DNA of 64,000 nucleotides from contig NC_088717.1 in the NCBI RefSeq assembly GCF_963576615.1, positions 19,330,108 through 19,394,107 on the forward strand, read 5' to 3'. The number at the start of each line of letters is the position of its first letter. Within the stretch, counting starts at the first letter, position 1. The notes beneath the pieces are model-generated. The model did no database searches. It was not told the DNA's origin and saw only the letters and a list, made by a program, of their open reading frames with translations. Shown here in pieces: positions 570 through 47,700 of this stretch. The DNA is from Watersipora subatra. Its lineage: Eukaryota; Bryozoa; Gymnolaemata; Cheilostomatida; Watersiporidae. The position numbers and the translations under genes were made by a program.

Positions 570-3500
570 TAAACTTCAGGGTGGTTGTGGTGGACTCCAA
601 CATGATGCCCCATAGAGGTTCCTGCAACGTTAAGATAAAGGTGAATCATATATACATGTACTTCATACGCAACAGATGAGAGCCTCGTCATATTGGTCGT
701 GTTCTATTCATCAACTTGTTACTAAGCAGCCTGTTGATATGTGGATATGCATGTGTCTGCATACAGCACACATATTTTTGTTCTGTCAGGGTTCAGTTTT
801 TACACAATATTCGTAACTGAAGTCTTACATAGAGCTATAATATATCCAGAATAAGTTTCTTCACACGTAATAACCCATATGTCTATACATGATACTAGGA
901 TGCTGAGGGCAACAAGATCAAACAGTGGAGGGATGTGGAGCTAGAAAGTGGCACACTCACTCTCAACTTGGAGTTGTCTGATCAACCCGTTTTGGGAGAC
1001 TGGACTATTAAAGCAACAACTGATCAGGTTTTTACTTTAGGAGTTGTCTGCTCTGCAGCATCTATTGCTTATCCTTCACTCAAACATATGAGAAACTTTG
1101 TTGTTGTAGCTCAACCAAATAGCGCTGTCAGAAATTATGAGACCGCCCAATAATTCATGCCTTTGTTCATTTTGACACTCCTGCTGGAGCCATGTTAATC
1201 TATTTACTTACCACATAATGCACATCACTTGATGCAAAAGTTTCTCCTTATTCTAGCAAAATAAAGCAATAGCGTTTTGGTCACATTTTGTAGCAGAGGT
1301 GATGAAATAAGTTGGAGTTGTATTATCATGTTATACCTTTAGTACCTGATCACTAGCCACTTTACACCATGACTGGCCCTCGTCAGAACTACCAATTATT
1401 ACAAAAGTAATTCAAAATATGTTGAGATAGTATCACAAAACTAATTAGTTGGGAATACAATAAGAAAATAACTAGGCTATCTTTTAATTCTAATCAAGGT
1501 CAGTTGTATACGCGTTTTCATCGAAAAACCTATTTTTTAATTGATGCTCAATGGTAACCCACTATATAATAATTGTTAGAGAATTTTGCATTTAATGGTA
1601 CTACATAGTTTGTGGTAGTTTTTAGTAAAATTAAGGCAGCAATTCATCACTATCAAATACCTCTTAAATGTGAGGTGGTCATATAACATACTCTAGGTAA
1701 CGTAATATTACATTGTTTAATAATAGTTGGTAATTATGCTTAGGGAGAAGTTGAAGAAAAAACAATATCCATCGCTAAATACGTCTTACCAAAGTTTGAG
1801 GTGACTCTTGATGCCCCGACTTATATTTTGGTTAGAGATTCACAACTGATGGTCACGATAGAAACAAAGTAAGTATTATTCTAGTCATGATCTACAGACC
1901 AGTAGACTCTGAGCTTACTACAAAATAGATCACGATTTGTCCATTTGGTACAGGTACACATTTGGAAACGGAGTGGATGGAGTGGCTACAGTATCAATAA
2001 CCAATAAGAATGGTGCGATATCTACATATGACAACAGATTGAGAAGATATTTCTATCTAGATAGAACTCTTGAACTCGGCAGCCTTCCAGTAAGTCGGCA
2101 AAATCCTTCTGTCATTCAACGCAAAATTTAACACTTATTGATTTGACTCTGTAAACCGTGGATATGCTCATTATCATTTAGTAAGTTGATAGCCCCACAC
2201 TAGGTTTAACCTTTGACCTTTATACATTTGTAGCTGATATTTGATATTTGTAGCTGGTTGATGGTAAAGTTGAGGTGAAACTCAGCAGAGGTCAGCTGGC
2301 AAGAATATCACGACTTGCAAATGGAGATGAATTAGAAATTTCAGTTAATGTAACTGAAACGCTCACAGGTAATAGCACTACTATAGCACTACTATTATAG
2401 CACTACTATAGCACTACTATAGCACTACTATAGCACATTTATATAGCACTACTATAGCACAATTATATAGCATTACTATAGCACTACTATAGCACATTTA
2501 TGTAGCACTACTATAGCACTACTATAGCACATTTATATAGCACTACTATAGCACATTTATATAGCATTACTATAGCACTACTATAGCACTACTAGAATAG
2601 CACATTTAAATCTTTAGTTATGCTGAGATCTGTACAATTGTATAAAAGCATGTATATCTTGATAGTCATTATAATTGCATGAATATATCCGTAGTTTTAT
2701 TTAGACTCGGACATAACAGAAGTGATTTAAAGATCTATATAAAACTGTAGTTTCCTAGAAGCATGTACAGATTAATAGTTTTACAAAGAGGTGTATATAT
2801 TTGTAGTTGTAAAAAGAGGTTTATATATGGGTAGTTGTATCAAAGAGGTGTATATATCAGTAGTTGTACAAAGAGGTGTATATATTAGTAGTTGTATCAA
2901 AGAGGTGTGTATATTAGTAGTTGTATAAAGAGGTGTATATATTAGTAGTTGTATAAAGAGGTGTATATATTAGTAGTTGTATAAAGAGGTGCATATATTA
3001 GTAGTTGTATAAAGAGGTGCATATATTAGTAGTTGTATAAAGAGGTGTATATATTAGTAGTTGTACAAAGAGGTGTATATATTAGTAGTTGTATAAAGAG
3101 GTGTATATATCAGTAGTTGTATAAAGAGGTGCATATATTAGTAGTTGTATAAAGAGGTGTATATATCAGTAGTTGTATAAAGAGGTGTATATATTAGTAG
3201 TTGTATAAAGTGATGTGTATACAAGTAGTTGTACAACGAGATGTATATATTGCTAGCTGTATAAAGACCCAATGCTCCCTGTTTCTATAGGAATAACGAG
3301 GAATCAGAAAGAGACCGTGAAGGTTTTAAGCTACTCTGAGCGAATTGAGTTCCTTTCAGCATCTCCCGCTACCTTCAAACCTGGCTTCCCCTACACTGGA
3401 TTTGTAAGTCTTATATTTATACCCTCTTTGTAAGCTAGTTGCTGGTACATCCAGTTTAGTAGTGAGTTGACTCATTATTATACCATTTACATATTCCTTG

Positions 3501-4156
3501 CTTCTATGAAACAGCAAAACAACAGACTTTCAAGGAAAAGATTTTCATGTTAATAGGTCTTAGTCGATGAACTTTAACGAAGTTTTAGTAGATTTTATCA
3601 GAAATTTTTGGCATTTTACTATTATTTGCGATTGTTGTTAACGCTTGATGTGATCTGACTGCCAGGATGTTTCATGATTAATGTAGACAAAGTTTTATCG
3701 AGCTTCAAACACTCAGAAGAAAATTACTTGGCGAAATGACATCACTAGTTGCTATCATTGCTATAGTTGATATCGCGTTCAAGTTGCTGCCTTACATGTC
3801 TCTATTCTATTGGTCTCTTTGCAACTATAGACACCATAATCGCATTGTTGCTTGATATGAAAGTTTTAACTGTGATCAAGTTTTGGTCAATTTTAATCTT
3901 GAAACATCCTGGCAGTCAGACATTCAAAACAATCGTAAATAATTAAAACATACTAATAATTTTTGATAGAATCTACTGAAATTTTGTGTAAGTTCATTTT
4001 GTAATTATTTTGTACGTCTTGAGACGTACCTTCAGTAGATGTTATGTCTAAAAGGAAATCAACTTATAGCTGACTACTTACACTTTCAGTTGAAACTGAG
4101 TCAAGTAGACGGAGGAATTGTTCCTAATCCAAGGAAAGCAGTAATAGTAGCAGAGA
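570..4156 (+). CDS. Gene A exons 1-7: macroglobulin domains MG2 to MG4
   Basis: Exon 1 (570-640, phase 1 in, 0 out) reads [18 protein letters not shown], the canonical start of MG2. Exon 2 (899-1027) continues [10 protein letters not shown] to LGDWTIKA. Exon 3 (1744-1868) has [15 protein letters not shown], the MG2/MG3 junction. Exon 4 (1954-2089) reads [14 protein letters not shown], diagnostic of the family, and is 15 codons longer than its gene B counterpart. Exon 5 (2254-2368), exon 6 (3291-3403, [10 protein letters not shown]) and exon 7 (4090-4156, [14 protein letters not shown]) complete MG3 and enter MG4. Phases match gene B exons 2-8 exactly. The intervening introns carry minisatellites and one MITE-like element. 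Confidence 0.9.
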
Positions 4157-7100
4157 GTAAGTTTGTTTATACACTTTATTATTATTTCTATCAACTATAT
4201 CATTATTATTATTCTTTTTTAACAAGTTTGTAAACATTAGCATTATTATAGAAATTTACATGTAGATTTATAACACTTTTTAAGATTATTTGGTTTGAGA
4301 AGGGATCGTTTTAAGCACATTTAACTTTTTTGGAATTGCGGAATAATTGTGCGGATATTTAATACAAATAATTAGTAATGATGATATTAATAATTTGAAT
4401 TATTATTATAATATTTTCACTGTTTTAAATTAGTATTTTATTGTTATTTGTTATTATTTATTATTATTATTTTGTGGTTTACCACGCGGGTCGCTGCACT
4501 TGGAATTTATGGTCCCGGGCATTAGCTATATGCTAAAAATACTACCCATATAGATTTCTGATACAGATAGCCCACATGAGTATTCATTTAGCTCCTAGTA
4601 GCACTGGTCATTGTTAAATATACTGTAGCTCAAAGAGTTCTGATATATTGAAAATCATCTAATCTCAAGTACTAGTTCTCTATACTTCCAATATTTCATT
4701 CTTCTTTACCAATCCTGTGTCTTTTATTACATCTGTGTCTATAATTTAGTATCAATTTTACCTATATATAAATCTCAGTTTTTGTCATTTTATTAAACTT
4801 GGTGTCAAATTATAGCAATTAAAATCCACACAGCACTAGATTTGATCTCTGGATCTCCTCTTCTATTTTGCGCTTGTTCATACACCCTTTCACTAACCAT
4901 TCTTTAGTCCTTTGACAAGGTTCCAGTTCCACTTACATCTTGGTGAGGTTTTGAGAAATGGACAACTCTAAAACTGCTAGTAATTCATCGAAGAGTTCAA
5001 AGAATCTCATGAAATTACCTCTCTACTGGTTACTGACCAATTCCTAGCAGACTTAGTCCAGCAAAATATTATGCTTTTTTGCCGTATATCACAACTGCCC
5101 GTTGCATATTGCATTTGAGAAAGTTCATTTATTTTATTGCTATTCTTATAATAATTGTTGTAATGTTGTTACAATTATTGTTATTAGTACTGTAGTCCCG
5201 TACACCTTGAGAGATCATCATGTGTAATAAGTATGTCTACAATTATTCAAGGGTATTGCAAAATGGTCCAGTAGCCAGTTGAATCCGCCTGAATCCCAGT
5301 TGAATAGTGCGCATGAATGTAAATCTAGATATCGGAGTTCAACTCCTGTCAACATCAATTGTTATAATTCTTGTTAATCATACTATTATTGTTAGGTTTT
5401 GAAGATAGATTCTATACATATGGTCAACGAAGAACCACTTTTGAAACAAATTCCTCTTTCCTTTCCAATGGATTGGCTGAATTCTCACTAGATATACCTT
5501 CTAGTGCAACCAGAGTTACTCTCACAGTAAGTACTTCAACACTAGCAACCAGAGTTACTCTCACAGTAAGTTCTTCAACACTAGCAACCAGAGTTACTCT
5601 CACAATAAGTACTTCAACACTACCAACTAGAGTTACTCTCACAGTAAGTACTTCAACACTACCAACCAGAGTTACTCTAACAGTAAGTACTTCAACACTA
5701 GCAACCAGAGTTACTCTCACAGTAAGTACTTCAACACTAGCAACCAGAGTTACTCTCACAGTAAGTACTTCAACACTAGCAACCAGAGTTACTCTCACAG
5801 TAAGTACTTCAACACTAGCAACCAGAGTTACTCTCACAGTAAGTACTTCAACACTAGCAACCAGAGTTACTCTCACAGTAAGTACTTCAACACTAGCAAC
5901 CAGAGTTACTCTCACAGTAAGTACTTCAACGGTAGCAATAGTTAAATTGCACAGTTGTTTGATTGTTCTTTTTAACTACGTTCAGTAAATCCATTCCTCT
6001 TTTCTTTTTTCAGGCCCGCTACGGTCGCCAATCAGTAACTAAATCTCTTAAAAGGATGAATTCAAGGAATGACAACTACGTACAGCTGTCTCTACAGACA
6101 AGCAGTCTTCAGGTAACGGTGATACAATTTTTATAATATTTCATATTATATTCATATTATAGCCGTATTATATTCTTATTATATACATAGTATATTATAT
6201 TCACGTTATCTTCATAATACAATTTTATATTACTTACTCTATATTATATTTATACTATATTTTTATATCATATTCATACTATAGTATATTCATATTTTAT
6301 TATAATCCTGTTATATTACCTTATATTATATTCACATTATATTTGAATTATGTTATATTTATATTATACTTATATCATCTCATAATATATTTGGTAATTT
6401 TTGTATTACACGTCTAATGTAAGCATTCACTGAAGCCCGTTAAGATTAAGGTTTCAAATAATCAGGTTTAATAATTGTGTCCCTATTGCTGACATAGACA
6501 ATAGAACCTTCTCTAGTCTTGCAAAAATTCTTCATGTCAAGGCTATTTTTGAGAAACTCACATAGACTGTGTCCCTAATCAAAAGTCATTCATCATTTTC
6601 AGGCTGGATCACAGGCCAACTTTAAGGTGACTTGTAGCATAGCGCGGCAGATTGTTGAATACCAAATTTGGTCTCGTGGTTTGATGGTAACTTCTGGTAG
6701 TGTGATGGTCAACACAGAGAGCTACTTCAGGTAAAACTTACTTTATAGATAAACTTACACAAAATTTTAGTCAATTTCGTCAAAAAGTATCAGTATTATT
6801 CTATCATTTGCAATTGTTTTTGATGTTTGAGGCGATCTGACGGCCAGGATGTTACAAGATTGAAATCAATAAAATTTGATTGCGGTTCAAACGCTCAGAT
6901 CAAGCGAAAGTGTGACTATGACGTCTATAGATGCAGAGACCAACAGAGTAGAGACACGTAATATTGCAACTCAAAAACACTAGCCAATATCAACTATAGC
7001 AACAATAACAACTAGTGACATCATTTTGCACGAATTTTTCTTCTGACCATTTGCGTTGCTTCTGAGCATTTCTTTTGAGATATTTTGTTGATCTTAATGT

Positions 7101-10100
7101 TGAAACATCCTGGCAGTCAGATCACCTCTAGCATCAAAAGCAATCTCGGATACGAGAAGAATATCAATACTTGCTGATAAAATCAGCTAAAACTTTGTGA
7201 AAGTTCATTTTTAATCAGAATAGAGCTACATTTACTAAACCTGCTCTTAGCTATATAGCTATATATATGGCTATATAGCTATATAGCCATATATAGCTAT
7301 ATAGCTATATATAGCTATATATATATATGGCTATATAGCTATATATATAGCTATATAGCCATATATAGCAATATAGCTATATATATATATAGCTATATAG
7401 ATGTGCTTTGCTAGTTTATAGCATTCAATGTGAATGTTTTAGATGAAGTTTTACTGCTGTCATCAGATGTTCCATTATCTCTGTACATTATGACTGTAAC
7501 TCAGACACTTTACACTGATTGTAGCGTTCAGATGACGGCGAGCATGTCACCATCAGCGAGGATTGTTGTATATTTCCTTGACCAGACACGAGACGGTTCT
7601 GCTGAACTCGTTGCGGATAGCCTCAACTTCAATGTTGATGGAGTATTTGAACGAAATCCAGTAGGTGCCAGCATTTTACCAGACTCACAGTTACACAACA
7701 TATGTTCGCTGCCTCTGAGAATCATAATCTCTTCCATTTAACAAACAATTTTGAAATTCTTTGAATTTTACTTTCTTGATAAAAAATTTTATGACTTTTC
7801 AATTTCAAGAATAGTTTAAAATGAGACACGAATCATCAATTTTTTACCTTCAGACAGCCATCTTTGTGACAGTGTGTCATGTCACAGCAGAGCGTGCCAC
7901 GTTATAAAAGGTCACGTCAAGTCTCATTATGCTGCCATGTTGCGCCATGTCACTTCACGGCTGTGTGATAAAGCATCATGCCATTTAGTGTCATGTCACG
8001 TTATTTTACATGTACTATTTAGTCTTGTGAAAAAAGCTATTTTAGAAGCAACTTTTACTTTTAATCCTGAAACTACCTCCGGTTTGTTCATTAGTAGTAA
8101 GTATTAATTATATTGTCATATATATATACAGGTGTAAGTATCAATTATATTGTCATGTATATACAGGTGTAAGTACTAATTATATAGTCATATATATCCA
8201 AGTGTAAGTATTCATTACATAGTCATATATATTCTAGTGTAAGTATTAATGATATCGTCATATATATCCAGGTGTAAGTATCCATGATATTGTCATATAT
8301 ATCCAGGTGTAAGTATCAATGATATTGTCATGTATACTGTATATTATTGTATATAAGTCTGTATCTTTCAGGTTGCAGTTTCATACAGCAAGGAAAGTGC
8401 TCAACCAGGTGAGAGTGTTGATGTACAGGTCACTGCAGTCTCTGGCTCTATGGTTGGTTTGCTGGCTGTAGACCAAAGTGTCCTGCTTCTGGCTGGAGGA
8501 AATGACATCACGCAAGCTGACGTACGTATCCTTAGTGATTGGTGCAGTGTCTGATTTGATTAGTACAAGCTCAGACAACTCCTTTACTATCACCACTTTC
8601 TACTTTATGAAACTTGCATTTTTGAAACAATTGAAAATTGATTCAAAAGTCATCTTTTATTAGCTGCGAATCTGTGAGACCTCTGAAACTAATCTTTAAT
8701 CTCAAATAAAATGTATTTCATATAAAAGAAATTATATTAGAAATTAAAATCTGTCCAATGAAGACTATATAAAGGATATACTATGTCTTTATTTTACTTT
8801 ATATATGCATGTATATACCTCTATACACATGTATTTATACCTGTATATATATATACCTGTATATATATACCTGTATACACATACATACAGGCATATATAT
8901 AGCTAACTGTAATTCCAGTAGTCATTGGGGCACTGGCCGCAATAACACCTGCGCATAAAATGTAGCTTGCCTAGATACTGGCAGCAATCAACTCGACTGA
9001 GTTGCAGAAAAGTGTGCTATTGGGAACAGCTAAGATCTTGAGGCGAGTGCTCAAACTCCCAGGTCTCTGGTAGGAGACCCGAGTTAGAGCAGAAATTACT
9101 ACCCATATGGGTTAACCAGAGAAAATTTTTTTTTATATATATTATATATGTTACACGGCTTCAAGTCATAGCAACAAACCTACTTTTACATAAAGCCCCA
9201 TGTAATATGCTCACATTGTGTCGTGATGCAGTTGAGTTCATATTTCTTACTCATCAAGTATTAGTTGGACAACTACCAGTTTTTTGTCACAGGTAATCTC
9301 TGAAATGAGGGAATATGACACAACTCCAAAGAATGACGATCAGGGTAATGTAGCCGTGTGCTTTTTCCCATACAGCACTGGTGGAACTGATACCTCATCT
9401 CTTCTTTCTAACTCAGGAATTGTCGCCCTTACCAACTCACTCATATATGTTGCACGTAAGTAAAGACATTGAACAACAATTTAAGTAACAGAAAGCTGGA
9501 GTATATTTAATATACAGTAATATATTTTTACTTTACTTTATTTCAGATATATAAAATATGTTTTTCCATGCAGCATAGACCCTGCTGTCTAGAGAAAAGT
9601 CAAAAAATTGTTTTACATTCACATTGAAAGTGTGTACTTCCAATAACTTAGCATAAAACCCTAAATCAAGTGAAAGTGATATAAAAAGAAAAGTTATTGA
9701 TACAAGCCAATAATACTACAGTTACTATACAGTCATTACTACAGCTACTATACAGTCATTACTACCGTTACTATACAGCTATTACTATAGTTACTTTACA
9801 GTCATTACTAAAGTTACTATACCGTTGTTACTACAGTTATTATACAGTCATTACTACAGTTATTATACAGTCATTGCTACAGTTACTATACAGTCATTAA
9901 ATTAAAAAGGTAGCTTCATTTTTTTTCTATTTGAAGGGCCAATGGGGGTGAGTTCGGGACGGTATTGGAATGGTTTAGGCTATTTACATGTATCTTACTA
10001 TTCGTAAAATGTAAAATCTCTATAATGTGATAGTTCTCGGAACAGATTATTTACATTGTAGGAGCATCTCCTGTATTAGCTTTTGCTTCTTTAATTATGG

Positions 10101-13100
10101 CGGTATCACCAATAGGGCTTTAAGTAAACATTTAAGGCATCATAAAGTCAACGATGCCTTTGGTCAATTAGTTAGCATCTATGAAGAGCTCATTGTCAGA
10201 TGTGTTTAGATTAACTGTCAACCAAATAAATTCATATTAAATGAATTTTTATATAAAGAACATGTTTTAATCAATAAATACGATCATTCAACCTTTTACA
10301 ATGCATATTACACCAGCTCGCTGTAGATTACACTTGTATATTGGATGTTAAAGCTGTATGATGCATGTTACATCAATGTGCTGCATATTACACCCGCATG
10401 TCACACATTCCAAAGGTCTGTCGCGTGTGACATACACCTCTACCAATTTTATTATTATGTCCATGAAAAATTTGTTGTAAACAGAATCAGTCTCAGGAAG
10501 AGCTCACAAAAATGGCCAATTCTAAATTTTCCGAATGCTTCTTGCTCTTGACTCAACCTATGAGTAGATAACTCCGATGAGTCAGAGGTTTCATCATAAG
10601 ATTGCATCTGATTCTTCGCTCGCCTTAGCCAGCAGGAACTGACTGAGCCTATCAGAGATTAGATACATTAGACACTTGCATATCACACCTTTCTACCGTA
10701 TACCACACTTGTCTGCTGTATATCACATCTGTCTGCTGCACATCACACTTCTCTGCTGCATATAACACTTGTATACTGCATATAATACCTTTCTTCTGTA
10801 TATCACAACTGTCTGCTCCATAAATTGCCTGTTTGCTGTATATCACAACTGTCTGCTCTATAAAATGCCTGTCTGCTTTACATCACATCTGCTTGCTGCA
10901 TATAACACCTGTCTGCTGCATATTACACCTGTATGCTGCGTATAACATCTGTATGCTGTATATAACATCTGTCTGCAGCAAATCACACTGGTCTGCTGCA
11001 TATCACACCTGTCTGCTGCATATTACACCTGCCTGCTGCATATTAAACCTGTATGCTGATAATATTACATTATCACTGCATCTTACACTTTTTTGCCTAC
11101 ATAACACTCATTTACACAGGGAGCACATGTGCTCATTTTACATAGAGTTTTCATAAACACAATCATTAACACGAATATTAGTAAAAACTGGACCATTACG
11201 CAGAACTCAACTTTATGGCCTCTAAAGAACTAGGAAGCAAGTGTGGAAAAGAAGCTATCGATGTCTTAGACCATTTTAAACTTTCTACCATTTTTATATA
11301 TACGTCATCATCATAACTGGAATGTAGTCATTACATATTTAATTAGTAAATATAATTTAAATACAATAAATATCATTTAAATGTATTAAAAGAATTTACA
11401 AATGAAGACTTAATGTATAACGTCTATTCAGTTTATTCAGTTAATGCAAGATGCAGGATAAATACGAAGCTTTGAGCTTGTAGCAGCAAAGTTCCTTTGA
11501 AAATACAAACAGACGTAGAGAACATGACTAAAAGTTTTGTACACATTTCCTCCGGCCTTGCAGACTCGCATAAACTTTTGTCTGTAACACCTCACGGCAG
11601 CAACTTCCCACCCTTGTGTAACTTATGCTATTTGCTAGCCAGTGTCAAGGTACATACTCTGTTCTGTTAGGAGAAAGGTACCCGAGCAGATACAGATATG
11701 TTTTGATGAGAAGAAGAGGCCCAGAGGACATTCTAGCGGACCCAATATTTTTGAAGGGTCCTGATTTGGTTGCTGATGAACGTTTAATGTCTGTTCCTGA
11801 ACCAAACTTTAATAATGCTGTTGAGCCTAAAGTACGAAAAATCTTTCCAGAAAGCTGGATATGGTCTAACCTAACTTCACAGTGAGTAATGAAAATGGTT
11901 TACTTTTTAAAGTGGACACTAAGTAGTTGTCTTTCCATGAGTATTTAAACTGATCCATGAAAGAATTTTTGCCACTTGACTGCAAATGCTATTTTAACTC
12001 TAACAATATTTGCTGAAAAAGTGCATTATGTCTATGGTGTGAATCTTTGAGTTTGCTGTTAAGCCAATAGTGTTTAGACAGACCCTCAGATATCACAATT
12101 TCTGATAGTTCTAGGTTTCTGTATTACTTCTATTGCCAGCAGACTAGATCTTATGTTTACGCCTCAAACTTATGTTTAAATAAAAGGAATGCCTTCGTTC
12201 TGTTTTAAAAATGTGATTCATACTTTATTCTACAAAGCTTCGATAGAACCTTGTTTTATTAACCAAACTATGTCTTTATTATTAGAAATGGTCAGGTGGT
12301 GATAACTACCACAGTCCCTGATACTATCACTTCGTGGGTGGCAAGCGCTTTTGCTGTATCCAATATGGCTGGTCTCGGGGTCTCTCCAGAAACTGCTAAG
12401 GTATGTATATATTCCCCATTTAACATCATGCAGCATTGTTCACTTCAGCGCTGTCTACGCATCAGCAGAAGGTTTCTATTTATGTTTCAGATGAGAGTCT
12501 TTAGACCTTTCTTTGTTTCTCTTAATCTACCATATTCAGTGGTGAGAGGTGAGCAGCTCGTTCTTCAAGCCATTGTTTTCAACTACCTGGACAGGGATGC
12601 AAATGTTACAGTCACACTTCCAGAGTCTGATGAGTACAGATCTATCGTAATTGACGATTCTGGTTTGATGGAACTTGCCCAAAAAATGGAGACTGTGACT
12701 GTGTTGGTATGTTTAATTGTATCAATGTGCTATTATTATATAAAAACTGTTTACCCTTTAGAAACTAACAGCTCTCATTTGAGTTTAGGTCGAATGCCTT
12801 CATCTTTTTCCTTAGCATATTTAGTCTTTTAATCCTCACCATCTTCCCTTCCCTTTTGAACACCATCTCATCATCCCTTTTGAACACAATCTCATCTTCC
12901 CTTTTGAAAACCATCACATCCTCCTTTTTGAACACCATCTCATCTTCCTATTTGAACACCATCACATCTTCTCTTTTGAACACCATCTCATCTTCCCTTT
13001 TGAACACCATCTCATCATCCCTTTTAAACACCATCTCACCTGCTCTTTTGAACACCATCTTACCTTCTTTTTTAATCACCCTCTCATCTTCTCTTTTGAA

Positions 13101-16100
13101 CACCATCTCATCTTTCCTTTTGAACACCATCTCACCTTCTCTTTTGAACACCATCTCATCTTCCCTTTTGAACACCATCTCATCTTCGTTTTAAACACCA
13201 TCTCATCTTCCTTTTGAACACCATCTTACCTTCCCTTTTAGACACCATCTCATCTTCTCTTTTGAACAGCATCTCATTTTCGTTTTGAACACCCTCTCAT
13301 CTGCCTTTTGAACACCATCTCACCTTCCCTTTTGAACACTATCTCATTTTCCCTTTTGAACACCCTCTCCTCTTCCCTTTTGAAAACCATCACATCCTCT
13401 TTTTTGAACACCATTTCATTTTCCTATTTGAACACCATCTCATCTTCCCTTTTGAACACCATCTCACCTTTCCTTTTGAACACCATCACATCTTCCTTTT
13501 TGAACACTATCTCATTTTCTCTTCTGAACACTATCTCTTCTTCCCTTTTGAACACCATCTCATTTTCTCTTTTGAACACCATCTCACCTTCCCTTCTGAA
13601 CACCACCACATCTTCCCTTTTGAACATCATCTCACCTTCCCTTTTGAACACCATCTCACCTTACTTGTCGTCTCTTTTCGGTGTCATTAAATGCTTTACA
13701 ATTTTTAAGGTATACATACTTAGAGGCTTTCAATGAACAGACTGTTGTTTTTTTTGTTTTTTTTTGTAGACCAACTGGTCCCATTTTGTATCATTCAAAA
13801 GCGTGGCCATTTGTGTTTCTGAGAAACAGGATTTGACAAGAAAATGCTGTTTTTATGCCAAAAACTTGCTTTATTTTTGTTTAATGTCTCAGCATTTATT
13901 TTTTATCTGGAAAATGTCTGACTTTTTCACCATGCTTAAAATTGCCATATTTTCTACTCTCATGAGACTATCGTCATTTTTTGTATCATTGTGAAGCACT
14001 GCTCTCTTTTTAACATTACAAGGTTTTCTTTCAGGCGAAGGCTAACAGTGGCACAACCATCTCCTTTCCTATCGTACCTGTGACAATTGGGTCAATGAAG
14101 GTCAGGGTCACTGCCACCACCCCTGGAGCTGCTGACGCCGTTCAGAGAGATCTGCTAGTTGAGGTTGCTATGGCGAAATTCTCTCAATAAACTTCTTGAT
14201 TCTAAACATGGTCCTAGCAATCCTTGAATACAAGGTCATATGATTGTCATTCTGGTGTCTGGACTAACTGCAGGCTGAGGGAGTGCAGAAGGAATACAAT
14301 CAAGCTGTACTCATTGATCTGAGCAACAGCTCTCTCTTCACAGAAACTCTGGCTATAGACTTACCCTCTAACGTTGTCAGCGATTCAGTACGGGTAGAGT
14401 TTTCTCTCATTGGTAAGCTTTCATTGCATTAAAGAACTTGAATGTAATTTCATAGGAGTTGCATTCTCTACACAAAATAGTGCTATTCATTCCAGATAGT
14501 TGCTGTATGATGTAGGGGATGTCATGGGACCCGCTTTGACTGGACTCGATAAGCTTATCAGGATGCCTTATGGCTGTGGAGAACAAAATATGCTCTTCTT
14601 TGCTCCCACAATTTTTGTTACTGAGTATCTCATGCAGACCAATCAACTCACAGCTGAAACTAAGGCTAAGAGTTTGGGATTCATGGAGAAAGGTCTGTAG
14701 TGTTTATGTGAGAGGAGTTTAAAAACTTAGGCTATGGTCTCTGTGCTATAACAGCTACTGGTTTACATACATCATTACTAGACAGTCATTGGTCAGAAGC
14801 ATTTCATCCTAATACAATATAAAGGGTGTTAGAGAAATAATATTTATCTATATATTACAAGATATGATATAACTCACCTGCGCCGTCTCGTCACTATTAG
14901 ATATATAAGGTGTCACACCTAAATTTTTACTTCCTGTGCGCCTTTTTAAAAAAGGAGCCAACTCATAGCTGTACTGTCTGGTCACTATTAGGTATATAAG
15001 ATGTCACACATTGGTCTTTACTTCCTGTGTGCCTTGTTCAAAAAATGATATAACTCACACCTGCACTGTCTTGTCACTTTTAGATATATAAGATGTCACA
15101 CATTGGTCTTTACTTCATGTGTGCCTTGTTCAAAAAATTATATAACTCCCAACTGTACTGTCTTGTCACTATTACATATATTAGGCGTCACACGTTGTTC
15201 TTTACTTCCTGTGTGCCCTGTTCAAAAAATGATATAACTCACACCTGCATTGTCTTGTCACTATTAGATATATAAGATGTCACACATGTCTTTACTTGCT
15301 GCTCACCTATTCTAAAAATAACTTTTTGTTTCTGACTGAAAATAGGTGAGGATACTGATGAATAGAATTCAATTACAGGTTATCAGAGAGAACTGACCTA
15401 TCAGAGATCGGATGGTTCATTCAGCGCATTTGGGCAAAGTGACCCTTCTGGAAGCATGTGGCTAACAGCTTTTGTAGTCAAGTCATTTCAACAAGCGAGA
15501 AGTTTTATTTTTGTGGATGAGAAGACAATTCTAAAAGCGGTTGACTGGATAATCAAAAGGCAAAATTCGGATGGGAGTTTTCCAGAACCTGGTCGCATCA
15601 TTCACAAGGAAATGTTGGTGAGCATTACCTAGTTACAAAAATCATGTAGTTGTGCTATAATATGCATAGCCACTATTCCTAGCGAGTGTCTTTTATAACA
15701 GGGTGGTGGAGCCAGTAGCAGAGTAACTTTGACGGCCTTTGTTCTGGCTGCCTTATCAGAAGTTCGAATCAGTTCTCCAAGACAGGTAGAAGGGCTTAGA
15801 ACTGCTTGGCGGTCTGGCCAGATGTATCTAGAAAGACAGGCGCGTGAACTTGCGGACCCCTACAGTTTGGCACTGACTTCTTACGCCCTTTTTAAATCCG
15901 GCAGTCCGTATGTCGATTTAGCATTTCAACCTCTTCAAAGACTTGCCATAACAGAAGGTAATTAGAAATGTTATGAGCATGAACACAATTTTACCATTTT
16001 TCAAAACAAGAGGCAGCTTTCTGGTACAATACATTTGTTAAAATGCATAATATCGACCTTAGTGTTTCTATGTATTGCTCTCTCAATTGATTTAGGCTTG

Positions 16101-18164
16101 TTTTAAAGAAAGATTGCCTGGAATAGGATTTGAACTCACAACTTTCAGCATAAGACCTATTGCTACTACCATGTGTGCCAATCCTTCAAATACCATGAAA
16201 GTTATACATATAGTTATTCTCTGTGCTTTATCCCCACATTTGATGATCTCTCATGTCGCTCGATACTGCCAGGGTACTAGTGATTTATAATTCATTCATG
16301 TAATTATTTAATTAGGGTACTTTTTTAGGGTATTTAATTAGTTTAATTGCAATAATAAAACTCTACCATTGCAAATATTTACCCTCAAAAAGGTTCAGAC
16401 TAAATAGAGTTGTCATATCGCACTTCTTACTTCTTTCTACATCTACTACTTTCTGCATTGATCTATGATTGTTTTAAGAACTCAGTGTATATTAGGTGGA
16501 ATGCAATACTGGCACCAGCCCCAACCAACTCCTGCAACCAACAGCAGAGCATGGAGGGCTCCACACCAGCAGGGTCGAGCTATTGACATAGAGCTAGCTG
16601 GTTATGTACTGCAGCTGGTCACAGAGAGATCTGGTGTCACAGAAGCGATGCCTATCCTTAAGTGGATTTCAGCTCAGAGAAACAGCAATGGTGGCTTCTC
16701 ATCAACTCAGGTTTGAGTCACTAATGCTATTTTTACACGTCCTTTCAAAATATGCCTAGCTCTTGTATCTACACACTAGAGCTATGCGTCTGTGCGTGTC
16801 GAGGTCTGATGTGAATACATCTATGAACTACTCTACATGAGCTAATATCATGCCTCTTCTACTGTTTCTAGGATACAGTTGTGGCATTACAAGCACTTGC
16901 TAAATATGCCAAAGTAGCATTTGGATCAAGTAATATGACTGTGGATGTTGCAGCAGCAGGACAAACCATTTCCTATAGCATCAGCTCTTCCAATGCTCTT
17001 TTGTTGCAAAGTCGGGTGGTTAGTAGTCCTTCCTACATTCTTGAGACAACCCTCAGCCAGTGTTACCTCATTCAGTTCTCTTCAGGTATCACATATATGT
17101 GTTATGGGTCTGACTTGTTTCTAGTTGGATGCTGATACCAAGTCTGTGAACCTATCAGCCAGCGGCTCTGGAGTAGCCTTAGCTCAAGTTTCTGTCAGTT
17201 ACAATGTGGAGGCATATGAACAAGAGCCCGCATTTGACACCGTAGCTACTATAATCAGTGAGTCAGACAAAAGGATTACTGTGAGAGTTTGTACCAGGTT
17301 AGTTATTACTAATGTAATATTCTGATTTGAGCTTTACAGCTTTACAGCTTTGCAGCAGTTTTCATAGTGAAGAAATGTACATATACAGATATCTCTGTAA
17401 AGGAATATGATACTAGTTTAAATTCCATACAGTCAGTGCGATATACATGTAAGACTGCTGAGGTGACAAGGGATGTGTGTGGTTACTAGGTGGTTGCTGG
17501 GTGGTACAACAGGCATGGCTGTTAAAGAGATCGGTATACCGAGTGGTTTCACGGCTGACATTGAGGCACTTGAGATGGAACGCTACGACGGAGTGAAGAG
17601 AATTGAAGAGGGTGACAGGAAGATTATTCTTTATTTTGATGAGGTAAGAGCACCTGTTGGACTTTCACTGTTGTTAGACTATCTTTCTAGCGAGTCTGTG
17701 GTTGTTTATTTGTTGTAAACTTCAGATGTCCATATATAGTAACTCTTTAAGGTGTATCCAGTGAACTGAAGGAAGTTCATAAGTATGTTTATGGTATGTT
17801 AACATACTACTTATAAATTACGAACTTTTCTAAGGAAGAACGCTCACAAATTAACAATCACTTGCAACCTTTTAAATTGCTCAAAAAAACAACAGTTGTG
17901 ACCAATTATAGACATCTAAATATATATTATTTAGTTTCCATGTTATTACAGCTTACAAGCGAGGAGAAGTGTGTAGAGGTCAATGCTGACAGAACAGGAT
18001 TAGTAGCTAAAGCTAGGCCAGTTGCTGTCAAGGTCTATGATTATTACGAGCCTGAGAACCAACAGACCATCTTCTACTCTAGCTCCCGTCTCGGTAACAA
18101 CAACATTTGCGATGTATGTGGAGATAACTGCGAGGGGTGCAGTGAATACTTGCGAAAAAAGTGA
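570..18164 (+). CDS. Gene A: thioester-containing protein (TEP/CD109/A2M family), 5'-partial, 26 exons visible
   Basis: Spliced from 26 exons: 570-640, 899-1027, 1744-1868, 1954-2089, 2254-2368, 3291-3403, 4090-4156, 5396-5526, 6014-6112, 6603-6730, 7525-7660, 8372-8521, 9293-9455, 11650-11881, 12286-12400, 12491-12706, 14035-14163, 14274-14412, 14516-14692, 15379-15617, 15702-15957, 16496-16710, 16872-17018, 17125-17297, 17490-17643, 17952-18164. All introns are GT-AG and the frame stays open for about 1321 codons to TGA. The order MG2-MG6, bait loop, MG7, CUB, thioester domain, CUB, C-terminal MG8 and a Cys-rich tail is that of secreted or surface TEPs. Such proteins are cut in the bait loop by proteases and then bind the attacker covalently through the thioester (family knowledge). 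The signal peptide and MG1 lie upstream of base 1. Weak points are the exon 14 acceptor and the exon 17 donor (GAG|gttgct). A true TEP is near certain; the immune role is inferred. Confidence 0.93.
2371..2600 (+). repeat. TAGCACTACTA-type short tandem repeat
   Basis: Tandem CACTACTATAG units with occasional CACATTTATATAG variants begin 2 bp after the donor of gene A exon 5 (2369), so the repeat virtually abuts the splice site. Confidence 0.85.
2775..3260 (+). repeat. 28-bp minisatellite in gene A intron 5
   Basis: About 16 units of AGTAGTTGTATAAAGAGGTG plus TATATATT, with point variants, end 30 bp before exon 6 of gene A. Confidence 0.9.
3567..3997. mobile_element. MITE-like element with long terminal inverted repeats, copy 1
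   Basis: The ends read ATGAACTTTAACGAAGTTTT and AAATTTTGTGTAAGTTCAT, which are inverted. Subterminal inverted blocks of about 100 bp contain GATCTGACTGCCAGGATGTT and its complement (AACATCCTGGCAGTCAGA). There is no ORF. The same element occurs at about 6747-7207, 35531-35983 and 61282-61714. The family is likely a non-autonomous DNA transposon; its superfamily is not identified. Confidence 0.75.
4760..4900 (-). repeat. Degenerate SINE-like remnant
   Basis: TATATATAAATCTCA followed by TCAAATTATAGCAATTAAAA and a GATCTC tract resembles the segment at 61720-61830. It is a probable relic of the same tRNA-like family as 35310-35460. Confidence 0.4.
5396..5916 (+). CDS. Gene A exon 8 with eleven tandem in-frame 5' splice sites
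   Basis: The exon starts after ttgttag at 5395 (phase 1) and encodes [17 protein letters not shown] through [20 protein letters not shown]. The first donor is GTAAGT at 5527. From there a 39-bp unit, made of 18 nt of exon end (ACCAGAGTTACTCTCACA) plus 21 nt of intron start, is repeated so that donors fall every 39 bp from 5527 to 5917. The third (5605) is mutated to ATAAGT, leaving ten usable GT donors. Because 39 is 13 codons, every donor joins exon 9 (6014) in the same frame, and each skipped donor would add 13 residues ([13 protein letters not shown]). The minimal exon of 131 nt is close to the 140 nt of gene B exon 9, so the first donor is probably ancestral. Which donors are used cannot be seen. 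Confidence 0.85.
5509..5937 (+). repeat. 39-bp minisatellite built from exon end plus splice donor
   Basis: Eleven units, each ACCAGAGTTACTCTCACA (exon 8 end) followed by GTAAGTACTTCAACACTAGC and a final A. Units 2, 3 and 4 carry variants, and units 5-10 are nearly identical, which indicates recent expansion on that side. Both strands are open for the full length. Confidence 0.95.
6014..9455 (+). CDS. Gene A exons 9-13: MG5 and MG6 up to the bait loop
   Basis: Exon 9 (6014-6112, [14 protein letters not shown]) and exon 10 (6603-6730, [15 protein letters not shown]) form MG5; the YQIWSRG block is typical of TEPs. Exon 11 (7525-7660) has [11 protein letters not shown] and [13 protein letters not shown]. 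Its donor (GTAGGT) is unlike the GTAAGT of gene B. Exon 12 (8372-8521) encodes [12 protein letters not shown] and is protein-identical to gene B exon 13. Exon 13 (9293-9455) ends in phase 1 after LTNSLIYVA and leads into the bait exon. By contrast exon 13 is strongly diverged from gene B exon 14. The introns hold a MITE-like element (about 6747-7207), an AT palindromic tract (7250-7400) and minisatellites. Confidence 0.88.
6747..7207. mobile_element. MITE-like element, copy 2
   Basis: It starts 17 bp after the donor of gene A exon 10. Its ends AAACTTACACAAAATTTTAG and AAAACTTTGTGAAAGTTCAT are inverted, and the subterminal GATCTGACGGCCAGGATGTT is inverted near 7100. It has no coding capacity. 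Confidence 0.75.
7250..7402. repeat. AGCTATAT palindromic simple repeat
   Basis: Self-complementary TATAGCTATATAGC/CATATATAGC units over 150 bp, able to fold into hairpins, about 120 bp before gene A exon 11. Confidence 0.85.
8095..8340 (+). repeat. Minisatellite with GTAAGTAT motif, gene A intron 11
   Basis: About seven units of roughly 35 bp, each with CAGGTGTAAGTATCAATGAT or variants, containing a consensus 5' splice-site string. The orthologous intron of gene B (44612-45050) has the same unit in about 13 copies, so this array predates the duplication or was exchanged. Confidence 0.9.
9690..9900 (+). repeat. 23-bp minisatellite
   Basis: About nine units of CAGTCATTACTACAGTTACT plus ATA, in gene A intron 13. 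Confidence 0.85.
10660..11065 (+). repeat. 20-bp minisatellite
   Basis: About 20 units of CTGCTGCATATCACACCTGT with variants; looser copies extend back to about 10290. It lies in the intron before the gene A bait exon. Confidence 0.85.
11650..11881 (+). CDS. Gene A exon 14: bait region (single version)
   Basis: The frame is open for 76 codons and ends [16 protein letters not shown], the conserved post-bait motif also present in both gene B bait exons, followed by CA|GTGAGT (phase 2). The first part is unlike gene B and Arg-rich ([18 protein letters not shown]). In this family the bait loop is the target of attacking proteases, so the Arg clusters suggest trypsin- or furin-like cleavage (inference). 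The acceptor is uncertain: I chose AG at 11648-11649 because it alone keeps phase 1 continuous with exon 13, but its pyrimidine tract is poor. No second bait exon was found in the 2.2-kb upstream intron, in contrast to gene B. Confidence 0.75.
12286..14412 (+). CDS. Gene A exons 15-18: MG7 and first half of CUB
   Basis: Exon 15 (12286-12400) encodes [17 protein letters not shown], exon 16 (12491-12706) [20 protein letters not shown], exon 17 (14035-14163) [19 protein letters not shown] and exon 18 (14274-14412) [16 protein letters not shown]. Together these are the MG7 core and the leading CUB strands that pack against the thioester domain. Exon 17 ends at GAG|gttgct, a weak donor in both paralogues (gene B GAG|gtctgt). 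Gene A residues after IVIDDSG differ from gene B (LMELAQKM versus STRNVKRQ). The 1.3-kb intron after exon 16 is mostly a 24-bp minisatellite. Confidence 0.88.
12842..13665 (+). repeat. 24-bp minisatellite in gene A intron 16
   Basis: About 34 units of CTTTTGAACACCATCTCATC plus TTCC. Since 24 is a multiple of three, long open frames (NTISSSLL) appear on both strands, but there is no reason to think they are translated. Confidence 0.92.
14516..14692 (+). CDS. Gene A exon 19: thioester exon (GCGEQNM)
   Basis: The intact thioester motif GCGEQNM is encoded at 14572-14592 within [19 protein letters not shown]. Cys and Gln of this motif form the internal thioester that couples to surfaces (family knowledge). 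The exon is taken to start at 14516 after gatgtag, because this gives [10 protein letters not shown] across the junction as in other A2M-family proteins. The upstream AG sites at 14495 and 14499 would bring in a stop or the wrong frame. Gene A has Phe where gene B and most relatives have Asn (MLFFAP versus MLNFAP). Confidence 0.93.
14865..15300 (+). repeat. About 93-bp tandem repeat, gene A intron 19
   Basis: About five units containing AGATATATAAGATGTCACAC and CTGTGTGCCTTGTTCAAAAA. The gene B intron has about two related units at 31495-31690, so copy number has changed since duplication. Confidence 0.85.
15379..16710 (+). CDS. Gene A exons 20-22: thioester (alpha-alpha barrel) domain with catalytic His
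   Basis: Exon 20 (15379-15617) reads [19 protein letters not shown] and ends PGRIIHKEM. The His codon at 15603-15605 aligns with the catalytic histidine of C3-type thioester domains, where it gives a fast-reacting, hydroxyl-preferring thioester (family knowledge). Exon 21 (15702-15957) has [13 protein letters not shown] and [19 protein letters not shown]. Exon 22 (16496-16710) has [16 protein letters not shown] and [11 protein letters not shown]. The helix-pair pattern is that of the TED barrel. Exon 21 is the most diverged of the three relative to gene B; exon 22 is nearly identical. Confidence 0.9.
16085..16290 (-). mobile_element. tRNA-derived SINE, copy 1
   Basis: On the minus strand, a leader starting near ACTAGTACCCTGGCAGTATC and GAGCGACATGAGAGATCATC is followed by a tRNA-like part with B box GAGTTCAAATCC. 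It shares this layout with 20790-21045, 24110-24310 and 30265-30500. Confidence 0.65.
16872..18164 (+). CDS. Gene A exons 23-26: end of TED, CUB second half, MG8 receptor-binding domain, Cys-rich tail
   Basis: Exon 23 (16872-17018) [18 protein letters not shown], exon 24 (17125-17297) [17 protein letters not shown], exon 25 (17490-17643) [17 protein letters not shown] and exon 26 (17952-18164) [16 protein letters not shown], ending [11 protein letters not shown] and a short basic tail before TGA. The Cys cluster (five Cys in exon 26) resembles the C-terminal cysteine signature of invertebrate TEPs. I see no hydrophobic GPI-type tail, so secretion is likelier than anchoring. For exon 23 I use the donor at 17019 (GTG|gttagt), which reproduces the gene B exon length and a normal family junction. 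Confidence 0.92.
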
Positions 18165-44700: not shown

Positions 44701-47700
44701 TATGACAATATCATTGATACTTACACCTGGATATATATGACAATATAATTAATACTTACAACTGGATATATATGACAATATCATTGATACTTACACCTAG
44801 ATATATAAGAGAATATCATTGATACTGACACATGGATATATATGACAATATCATTGATACTTACACCTAGATATATAAGAGAATATCATTGATACTTACA
44901 ACTGGATATATATGACAATATAATTAAAACTTACATCTGGATATATATGACATAATCATTGATACTTACACATGGATATATATGACAATATCATTGATAC
45001 TTACACCTGGATATATATGACAATATAATTAATACTTACACCTGGACACACTTATCATTATATAATTAACACATAAAATTAATAATTAACTCTTCAAATA
45101 AAATATAAGAAGCATCCGCTAGCCTAGCTAAAGCTCTACTCAATAGATTTAGAATCACTTACCTTATTTCTGTCAAAAGCACCTTCTACATTGAAGTTCA
45201 AGCTGTCCACTAACAGTTCTCCATCGACAACAGCATAGGCAAGAATTCTAGCAGAAGGAGCCATCTCAGCTTGCATCCCTACACTGAACAAGCACACAGA
45301 AACCTTTGTTAAACATGACCATAACAGGCTAATTGTGATGCTCATTGATATTGAAAGGTGAGAGAAAGAAAATCAGACTAAGAATACAAAGTAAACCTGA
45401 AATTATAGCGTAACAAAAATTTGTATGAGAAAAGACTCTATAACAATCATATAAAGGCACCGCATAAACATCAATCGTCTCATCGTATAAACATCAATCG
45501 TCTCATCGCATACACATCAATCGTCTCATCGTATAAACATCGAACCTCATGAAATAGATCTAAATAACCAAACCAAAACCTGTACCTGAATGAAGACTTG
45601 GTATCAACAATGATACTTCCTGATGTTATCATGGAACCACGCGCCCATATTTGGTAGTCAATTATTTGACTAGATTTTGTGGTGGACAGTGTAAAGGTTG
45701 CCGCAGAATTAGCCTACATTACAAACAAAACAGATACAAATTGTGGTGAAACTCCTTGTTTGTAGCAACTATGAGTTATCAGCAAGTCTCATGTAGCATA
45801 TTTCCTTATGATTTCACGTCTGTATATATTTGTTCCATATTTTGATACTTCATACAGTTGTTATACATTTTAACTGTAGGAACTTTGGGTTTAGTTTAAC
45901 TGTTGCTATGGCCCCCATTTCTTTAGTTTGGCCTTTGCGAAGACTAATATACCGGTATCTGTACTTTAGCTGTTGCTAAGTCCACTACATGTTTAGTTTA
46001 GCAGTTGCTATGACTACCATATCTTTAGTTTAACTGTTGCTAACTGTTGTATCTGTAAAGTAGCTATTGTCAAGGACACGATATCAATAATAAAAGCACT
46101 GAAATACTGAATACTGAAAGCACAATGCAATTAACTAAGACTCTCTTACCAGAGTTACACAGGCCTCTTCAGTAAAGTTATCAAGGATTACCTTAGGTTT
46201 GAGGGTATCTAAAGACAGCTGCAGGAAATTGCTGTTCTGAGATTTGGTCTGTTTGATAATCTTGGATGCTGTCACACCGACCTTGTTATCGTACTTCGCC
46301 TGTAAAACCGGTAAAAACTAGATTTGTTTTGAGGAAAAAGCAGAACAAAGCAAAAAGTCAGCGTGTATTAGATATATATAGCTTTAAGTATAAATAAGAA
46401 TGCAAAATGTTATGAAATTGCTGCTTTGCAAGTGTCTAGTGGCAGACTTCATGCCTAGACCTCACCCATCAGGTAACAGTAACAATAGTAGCCTACATAT
46501 ACATTTTATAAACATGTATATGTACATGTATATAAAATTACTATTTATCCTATTTTAAGACAAAGAAACAGATAAATGATATATGGTATGGCAACACTGG
46601 CTATACACTGAAGGACCGTTTCCTTATGATGGGGAGAGTACATTGTATAAATAAAGAGGAAGTACTGACATACATATACACTGAAGGACAGTTTCCTTAT
46701 GATGAGAAGAGTATATTGTATAAAAGAAAGAGGAAGTACTGACATACATATACACTAAAGGACAGTTTCCTTATGATGAGGAGAGTACATTGTATAAAAT
46801 AAAGAGGAAGCACTGACATACATATACACTGAAGGACAGTTTCCTTATGATGAGGAGAGCACATTGTATAAAATAAAGAGGAAGTACTGACATACATATA
46901 CACTAAAGGACAGTTTCCTTATGATGAGGAGAGTACATTGTATAAAATAAAGAGGAAGTACTGACATACATATACACTGAAGGACAGTTTCCTTATGATG
47001 AGGAGAGTACATTGTATAAAATAAAGAGGAAGTACTGACATACATATACACTGAAGGACAGTTTCCTTATGATGAGGAGAGTACATTGTATAAAATAAAG
47101 AGGAAGTACTGACATACATATACACTGAAGGACAGTTTCCTTATGATGAGGAGAGTACATTGTATAAAATAAAGAGGAAGTACTGACATACATATACACT
47201 AAAGGACAGTTTCCTTATGATGAGGAGAGTACAATGTATAAAATAAAGAGGAAGTACTGACATACATATACACTAAAGGACAGTTTCCTTATGATGAGGA
47301 GAGTACATTGTATAAAATAAATAGGAAGTACTGACATACATATACACTGAAGGACAGTTTCCTTATGATGAGGAGAGTACATTGTATAAAATAAAGAGGA
47401 AGTACTGACATACATATACACTGAAGGACAGTTTCCTTATGATGAGGAGAGTACATTGTATAAAATAAAGAGGAAGTACTGACATACATATACACTAAAG
47501 GACAGTTTCCTTATGATGAGGAGAGTACATTGTATAAAATAAAGAGGAAGTACTGACATACATATACACTGAAGGACAGTTTCCTTATGATGAGGAGAGT
47601 ATATTGTGTAAAATAAAGAAGAAGTACTGACATACATATATGGTGGTGCTCTCTGTGCCAGCTGGAACATCTACCAAGAGCTCAGCAAGACCATTGCTTG

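Follow-up and report, generated by a model that had tools for sequence, protein, structure and literature searches.

The DNA analyzed here is a 64,000-nucleotide stretch of the genome of Watersipora subatra, a bryozoan of the order Cheilostomatida (contig NC_088717.1; hereafter, the window). It contains gene A, which encodes a CD109-like thioester protein, and a paralogue on the opposite strand, gene B. In both genes, a minisatellite lies over the splice donor of exon 8. An initial annotation of the window had proposed that the gene A array is both a cluster of tandem splice donors and a coding reserve by which the protein can be lengthened. We describe the two arrays and consider which of the gene A donors is likely to be used.

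We modelled 26 exons of gene A, with splice sites picked by hand and exon numbers counted within the window; the first exons presumably lie upstream of it. The modelled exons are all in phase, and there are no internal stops. In a protein search, the spliced product was 100% identical, over 78% of the query, to P0001 (a 1005-amino-acid “CD109 antigen-like” protein of Watersipora subatra), which matches the 3' part of the gene. In a 443-amino-acid test piece of the gene A product, Pfam identifies MG3, MG4, and A2M_BRD (MG2 is cut by the end of the piece and falls below the cut-off), and in P0001 it identifies A2M_BRD, A2M, TED_complement, and A2M_recep. Both the gene A product and P0001 have the sequence GCGEQ(N), which we take to be the thioester motif of CD109 and the invertebrate thioester-containing proteins (TEPs). 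Judged by these matches, gene A is a member of the CD109/invertebrate TEP family, with macroglobulin, bait-region, A2M, TED, and receptor domains in order. Its relatives of solved structure include CD109 antigen (9fx2, 8s3o), thioester-containing protein 1 (4d94), and alpha-2-macroglobulin. An apparent early stop in gene A was rejected: the TAG at about 14497, which fell in an exon of the first model, is intronic, as a CD109-type junction (..SLIGDVMG..) puts the start of exon 19 at 14516 and P0001 agrees.

The donor array of gene A

In the single haplotype analyzed, Tandem Repeats Finder (TRF) reports 11.1 copies of a 39-bp repeat, with 96% matches and no indels, straddling the end of exon 8 as the initial annotation had described (Table 1). 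The unit is GCAACCAGAGTTACTCTCACA|GTAAGTACTTCAACACTA and encodes 13 residues. In the register chosen by TRF, copy 1 takes 21 nucleotides from the end of exon 8 and 18 nucleotides from the intron; the split of 18 exonic and 21 intronic nucleotides that was given earlier is valid as one register of the repeat but is not the one at which TRF starts. Intact GTAAGT hexamers begin at 5527, 5566, 5644, 5683, 5722, 5761, 5800, 5839, 5878, and 5917 (n = 10), and the donor of copy 3 is broken (ATAAGT at 5605). The earlier count of eleven tandem donors holds for the positions in the array, including the mutated one, but only ten of them are intact.

Table 1. Coordinates of gene A, gene B, and their exon-8 arrays in the window
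Feature	Position	Strand	Basis
Gene A (CD109-like thioester protein); model of 26 exons	580..18164	+	Exon model, P0001 match, Pfam
Gene A exon 8 (131 nt, phase-0 end); array copy 1 begins with its last 21 nt	5396..5526	+	
Minisatellite, 39-bp	5506..5938	+	TRF, unit table
First donor GTAAGT, predicted as the one used	5527..5532	+	Use inferred
Intron 8 of gene A under first-donor use, 487 nt	5527..6013	+	Acceptor score 13.9, top of 35 modelled acceptors
Broken donor ATAAGT, copy 3	5605..5610	+	Unit table, donor survey
Last intact donor GTAAGT; intron then 97 nt	5917..5922	+	Computed products
Gene A exon 9, starts in phase 0	6014..6112	+	
Gene B exon 9, begins AKYDNK	46192..46299	-	
Gene B 74-bp minisatellite over homologous exon-8 donor, 14 copies	46602..47640	-	TRF, unit table
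Gene B exon 8, ends ..ESTTIY, phase 0	47636..47775	-	

Compared with the consensus, the 11 copies have 8 differences in total, and copies 1 and 6–10 are identical. One of 66 positions is changed in the donor hexamers, versus 7 of 363 in the rest of the array. The numbers are small, and they give no hint of constraint on the extra donors, as would be expected if these were idle. We also scored the donors, using a matrix built from the other 33 donors of genes A and B. From -3 to +6, the ten intact donors have the same sequence, with a score of 8.3 that is at the 76th percentile of those 33. Because the scores are equal, the local sequence cannot choose among the ten.

We computed the product of each choice of donor. 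Exon 9 starts in phase 0, and, as had been claimed, the frame from exon 8 into exon 9 is open for all eleven array positions (the ten GTAAGT and 5605). Depending on the donor, exon 8 would have 131–521 nt and intron 8 would have 487–97 nt. The protein could gain 0, 1, or 3–10 units of 13 residues; the earlier range of 0 to 10 stands except for the form with two units, which has no GT donor (copy 3). Every added unit ends with ATRVTLT or PTRVTLT, so that the residues before ARYG are nearly constant for any donor. If intron 8 were retained, the protein would terminate within the intron read-through. The exon 8–9 junction follows residue 272 of the 443-amino-acid piece, in which Pfam places MG4 at 190–285 and A2M_BRD from 295. 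The insertion point is therefore within MG4 and not at the MG4/MG5 junction, where it had been placed.

An open repeat of this kind could also arise by luck. With the exonic part and GTAAGT held fixed, the chance that the unit has a length divisible by 3 and no stop is 0.83 x 1/3 = 0.28; for a random unit that begins with GTAAGT, the chance of an open in-frame unit is about 0.15 (0.453 x 1/3). Because the copies are near-identical, the openness of the ten extra copies counts as one event. The open repeat is weak evidence of function.

We rejected splicing inside the gene A array as a likely route, as its 52 AGs score at most 2.3, versus 3.0–13.9 for the 35 modelled acceptors. Behind the array, the AG at 5985 scores 5.6. 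Use of a CACAG acceptor would place a TAA at the joint, as read from the sequence. Intron gain by tandem duplication was rejected as well, since gene B has an intron at the same place and the AGs in the array score too low.

Gene B and other relatives at the same junction

Gene B keeps intron 8 at the same place as gene A, and its donor is also covered by an array, of which copy 1 includes 5 exonic nucleotides. GTATGT is present in 14 of 14 copies, with a donor score of 5.4 that is weaker than the 8.3 of gene A. Since 74 is not a multiple of 3, each unit shifts the frame, and it also contains an in-frame TAA. Only the first donor (1 of 14) keeps the frame intact; all 13 later donors meet the same stop. 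Therefore, a full gene B protein would require use of the first donor, and arrays of this kind can persist without being a coding reserve. The units of the two genes are unlike, except for AGTACTTC behind the donor (read from the sequence). In a comparison within the window, which might have pointed to a shared origin of the two arrays, no match between A and B was found inside intron 8.

We surveyed 35 introns (25 from A and 10 from B) for tandem copies of junction 20-mers, allowing up to 3 mismatches and a distance of 1,500 nt. Such copies accompany only 2 of 35 donors (the homologous pair at exon 8) and none of the 35 acceptors; the prevalence rests on these 35 introns of two genes. We also placed eight gene A arrays at random, and 4.8 of the 8 would be expected to lie over a junction, versus 1 of 8 observed (P(<=1) = 0.007). 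These eight are selected TRF rows, and lower-scoring rows (4437, 6131-6391, 7248-7400, 8808-8884, and 16305) were left out. Arrays over junctions look to be selected against.

We aligned the first-donor product of gene A to 17 homologues, picked from 120 listed. Both of the other Watersipora paralogues (..STTIY|AKYDNK..) were included, and P0001 was not, as it starts past the junction. None of the 17 has a repeat unit at the junction. From these homologues, we infer that the first gene A donor is the authentic one.

Which donor is used

Tandem repeats across exon-intron borders are known from lancelets, where they are called “mirages.” They are reported in Adh3, the globins BflGb6 and BflGb9, troponin C, and PGBD5, with regular splicing and with length instability, even somatic (PMC3087553, PMC3902484). 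In the Watersipora arrays, too, copy 1 spans the border and a splice signal recurs, in 10 of 11 copies for A and 14 of 14 for B. The lancelet cases are from another phylum and other genes, whereas the gene A unit has 39 bp and is in frame and open, with ten intact donors; furthermore, in Watersipora, two paralogues have unlike arrays at the same donor. In intron 7 of human factor VII (F7), there are 37-bp repeats with the authentic donor in the first, and normally only the most upstream donor is used, which is described as “oriented scanning” (PMC6627357). Gene A likewise has repeats with equally strong donors and its presumed authentic donor in the first copy. The 37-bp unit of F7 would shift the frame, unlike the 39-bp unit of gene A, and donor use in gene A is a prediction. 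In recently duplicated human genes, internal tandem repeats at exon-intron borders are reported to alter the exon-intron structure, with novel introns that have transcript support (PMC2812944). The Watersipora arrays, in contrast, involve no new intron and are known here from genomic sequence alone. Thus, this kind of array is already described in other animals, and here it is in a bryozoan CD109-like gene. The initial annotation had called it not a described feature of TEPs. Our search of one open-access library, judged by title and the start of the abstract, found no TEP gene with a donor array, but the kind itself is known from lancelets and human F7.

We consider it fairly probable that the gene A array is a mirage-type minisatellite over the exon-8 donor, with mainly the first donor in use and the nine other intact donors silent. 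We favor this reading because of the gene B control, the 17 of 17 homologues without units, and the precedents in lancelets and factor VII. In human, in-frame tandem splice sites are reported to be selected against in structured protein regions (PMC2279118), in line with this reading. One duplication across the exon-intron border, followed by slippage or unequal exchange, would have given rise to the array. The first donor would be chosen from the 5' end, by oriented scanning as in factor VII intron 7, and the array is probably tolerable since the original exon end survives in the 5'-most copy. If splicing slipped to a later donor, the gene A frame would hold, with one or more 13-residue units added in MG4, while the gene B frame would run into a stop. 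Occasional use of later gene A donors is thus compatible with this reading but not required by it. On this sequence evidence, the array is likely mostly a silent repeat, and lengthening of the protein is only a possibility. The frame arithmetic behind the proposed coding reserve is sound, but nothing we found shows lengthening, and the gene B array persists with donors that break the frame. Overall, the initial observation is mostly confirmed, with small corrections, and its interpretation is partly supported.

Several points weigh against a preference for the first donor. Over the scoring window, nothing distinguishes the ten intact donors, which score 8.3 each. Classical experiments with duplicated donors often favor the intron-proximal site, and the factor VII rule derives from mammals. 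P0050, one of the 17 homologues, is longer by two residues just upstream of the junction, which indicates that minor changes in length are tolerated at that spot. Predicted RNA pairing in gene A does not favor the first donor (mean unpaired 0.47, versus 0.31–0.60). Also, P0001 starts in exon 9, so the public annotation shows no exon 8–9 junction for gene A, and gene A may be poorly expressed or split.

As for RNA folding, the first donor of gene B is the least paired of its array (0.30 versus 0.15–0.27 unpaired), which is a weak hint. An idealized gene A array folds at -116 kcal/mol, versus a mean of -82 (sd 21.9) for 40 arrays of shuffled units, and shows no difference that favors the first donor. 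Folding as the means of choosing the first donor is unsupported in gene A.

Several donors might instead be used in parallel, perhaps by tissue or upon immune challenge, to add 0, 1, or 3–10 Thr/Ser-rich units in MG4 ahead of ATRVTLT|ARYG. The eleven open positions, the ten GTAAGT with equal scores, and intron sizes of 97–487 nt, which are within the range modelled for A and B (84–2215 nt), are consistent with this. There is a partial parallel in the Rlec lectins of prawns, which have in-frame 30/33-bp repeats inside exon 2; their number varies between genes, which is ascribed to slippage, and more coding repeats are reported to raise immune activities (PMC7536079). Both are immune-type genes with in-frame repeats, but the Rlec repeats are intra-exonic and do not vary by donor choice. 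The splicing variety reported for TEPs (BgTEP2, CfTEP, and Drosophila TEP2) involves alternative exons, in the highly variable or bait region where the site is stated (PMC7016707), and gene A differs in having a donor array within MG4. Parallel use of donors seems unlikely to us, as the MG4 site lacks repeat units in 17 of 17 homologues, the open frame has a 0.28 chance of arising by luck, and the donors from 5683 onward would give an exon 8 of 287–521 nt, versus at most 256 nt for the other modelled exons. Furthermore, a query with the ten-unit tract had no protein hit, although this test is weak: only the 7,996 candidates with the most words in common were scored, and known Watersipora relatives with the same flanks were missed too. 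In an extension of this idea, gene A would emit a graded MG4 series (0, 1, or 3–10 units) that is tuned by germline or somatic copy number, and the gene B array would be an on/off switch acting via message decay; we think this quite improbable.

Alternatively, a single later donor, most likely the intron-proximal one at 5917, might be used constitutively, in which case the array would be coding and would lengthen MG4 by about 130 residues. All copies are open, the 97-nt intron is in the modelled size range, and duplicated donors tend to favor the proximal site. On the other hand, gene B would be disrupted under such a rule (all 13 of its later donors meet a stop), exon 8 of gene A would have 521 nt, or twice the longest other modelled exon, and the tract search, weak as it is, found no such protein. 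This makes constitutive use of a later donor very unlikely.

Another explanation is that gene A is split or decaying, with its halves transcribed separately and no splicing through intron 8, which would leave the array in dead ground. In favor of this, P0001 begins at the first Met of exon 9. However, Met is absent from the gene A exons at 1954-5526, and a transcript model that extended through exon 8 but lacked its 5' end would likewise be annotated as starting in exon 9. Another annotated protein, P0121 (297 amino acids), is a relative of the 5' part of gene A (95% identical). Its C-terminal tail, VSLIFIPSL, arises by reading past the donor of the exon at 3291-3403, and the window encodes the same tail. 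However, P0121 comes from a separate copy, as 10 of its 226 compared residues do not match gene A. Since all 26 modelled exons, with their hand-picked splice sites, also stay open and in phase, we regard a split gene as unlikely. The gene models of this family look broken, with P0001 starting in exon 9 and P0121 ending by read-through of a donor.

Other arrays in the window and implications

Of 20 arrays that we checked, four repeat GTAAGT/ACTTAC: 10 times in the 11 copies at 5506, 7 times in about 7 copies at 8097, 13 times in about 28 copies at 33438, and 11 times in about 12 copies at 44632. This could mean that the gene A array is an uncut landing strip for the U1 small nuclear ribonucleoprotein, which would aid the definition of exon 8 or block early polyadenylation. 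Two of these arrays, at 8097 and 44632, are homologous to each other and occupy the same intron of the two genes in sense orientation, which fits with such a role. Still, 16 of the 20 arrays have no such repeats, the exon-8 array of gene B has the weaker GTATGT (5.4 versus 8.3), and the array at 33438-34399 is antisense to gene B, and we consider a U1 role highly improbable.

The homologous pair consists of 35-bp arrays at 8097-8336 (+) and 44632-45046 (-), which lie at the same mid-intron place in intron 11 of A and B. On the gene strand, they have 7 (A) and 11 (B) GTAAGT, with an acceptor-like CAG two bases upstream in 4 and 8 of them, respectively. We rejected these as junction donor arrays, as they are in mid-intron and away from the donors at 7661 and 45162. 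The array at 33438-34399 has a 34-bp unit. Because its GTAAGT copies are antisense to gene B, GTAAGT in arrays of this region is not always tied to splicing.

In gene A, an 11-bp array at 2369-2594 begins 3 nt behind the donor start of the exon at 2254-2368. On the minus strand, an 18-bp repeat at 34795-34852 would read TGAAPP in the presumed bait region of gene B; of the paralogues P0002 and P0003, which are both longer than 1200 amino acids, P0002 has two tandem bait-type segments and P0003 has one. A 16-bp array at 53585-57453 (about 242 copies, or 3.9 kb) lies inside the presumed span of gene B. A dispersed repeat with about 70–81% identity is found at 3566-3984, 6744-7192, 35546-35988, and 61301-61715, in introns of A and in the presumed span of B.

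The arrays described here extend junction-spanning minisatellites to a bryozoan and to an immune-type protein family. They also provide a paired natural test of donor choice, as ten donors that are identical over the scoring window are frame-neutral in gene A, and the donors past the first copy are frame-breaking in gene B. RNA-seq (BioProject PRJEB62167) and second-haplotype contigs of W. subatra are deposited (PMC12902671). If later donors were used, the array would be a new way for an immune-type protein to vary in length. If only the first donor is used in both genes, then position in the transcript, not sequence, would set the choice of donor outside mammals too.
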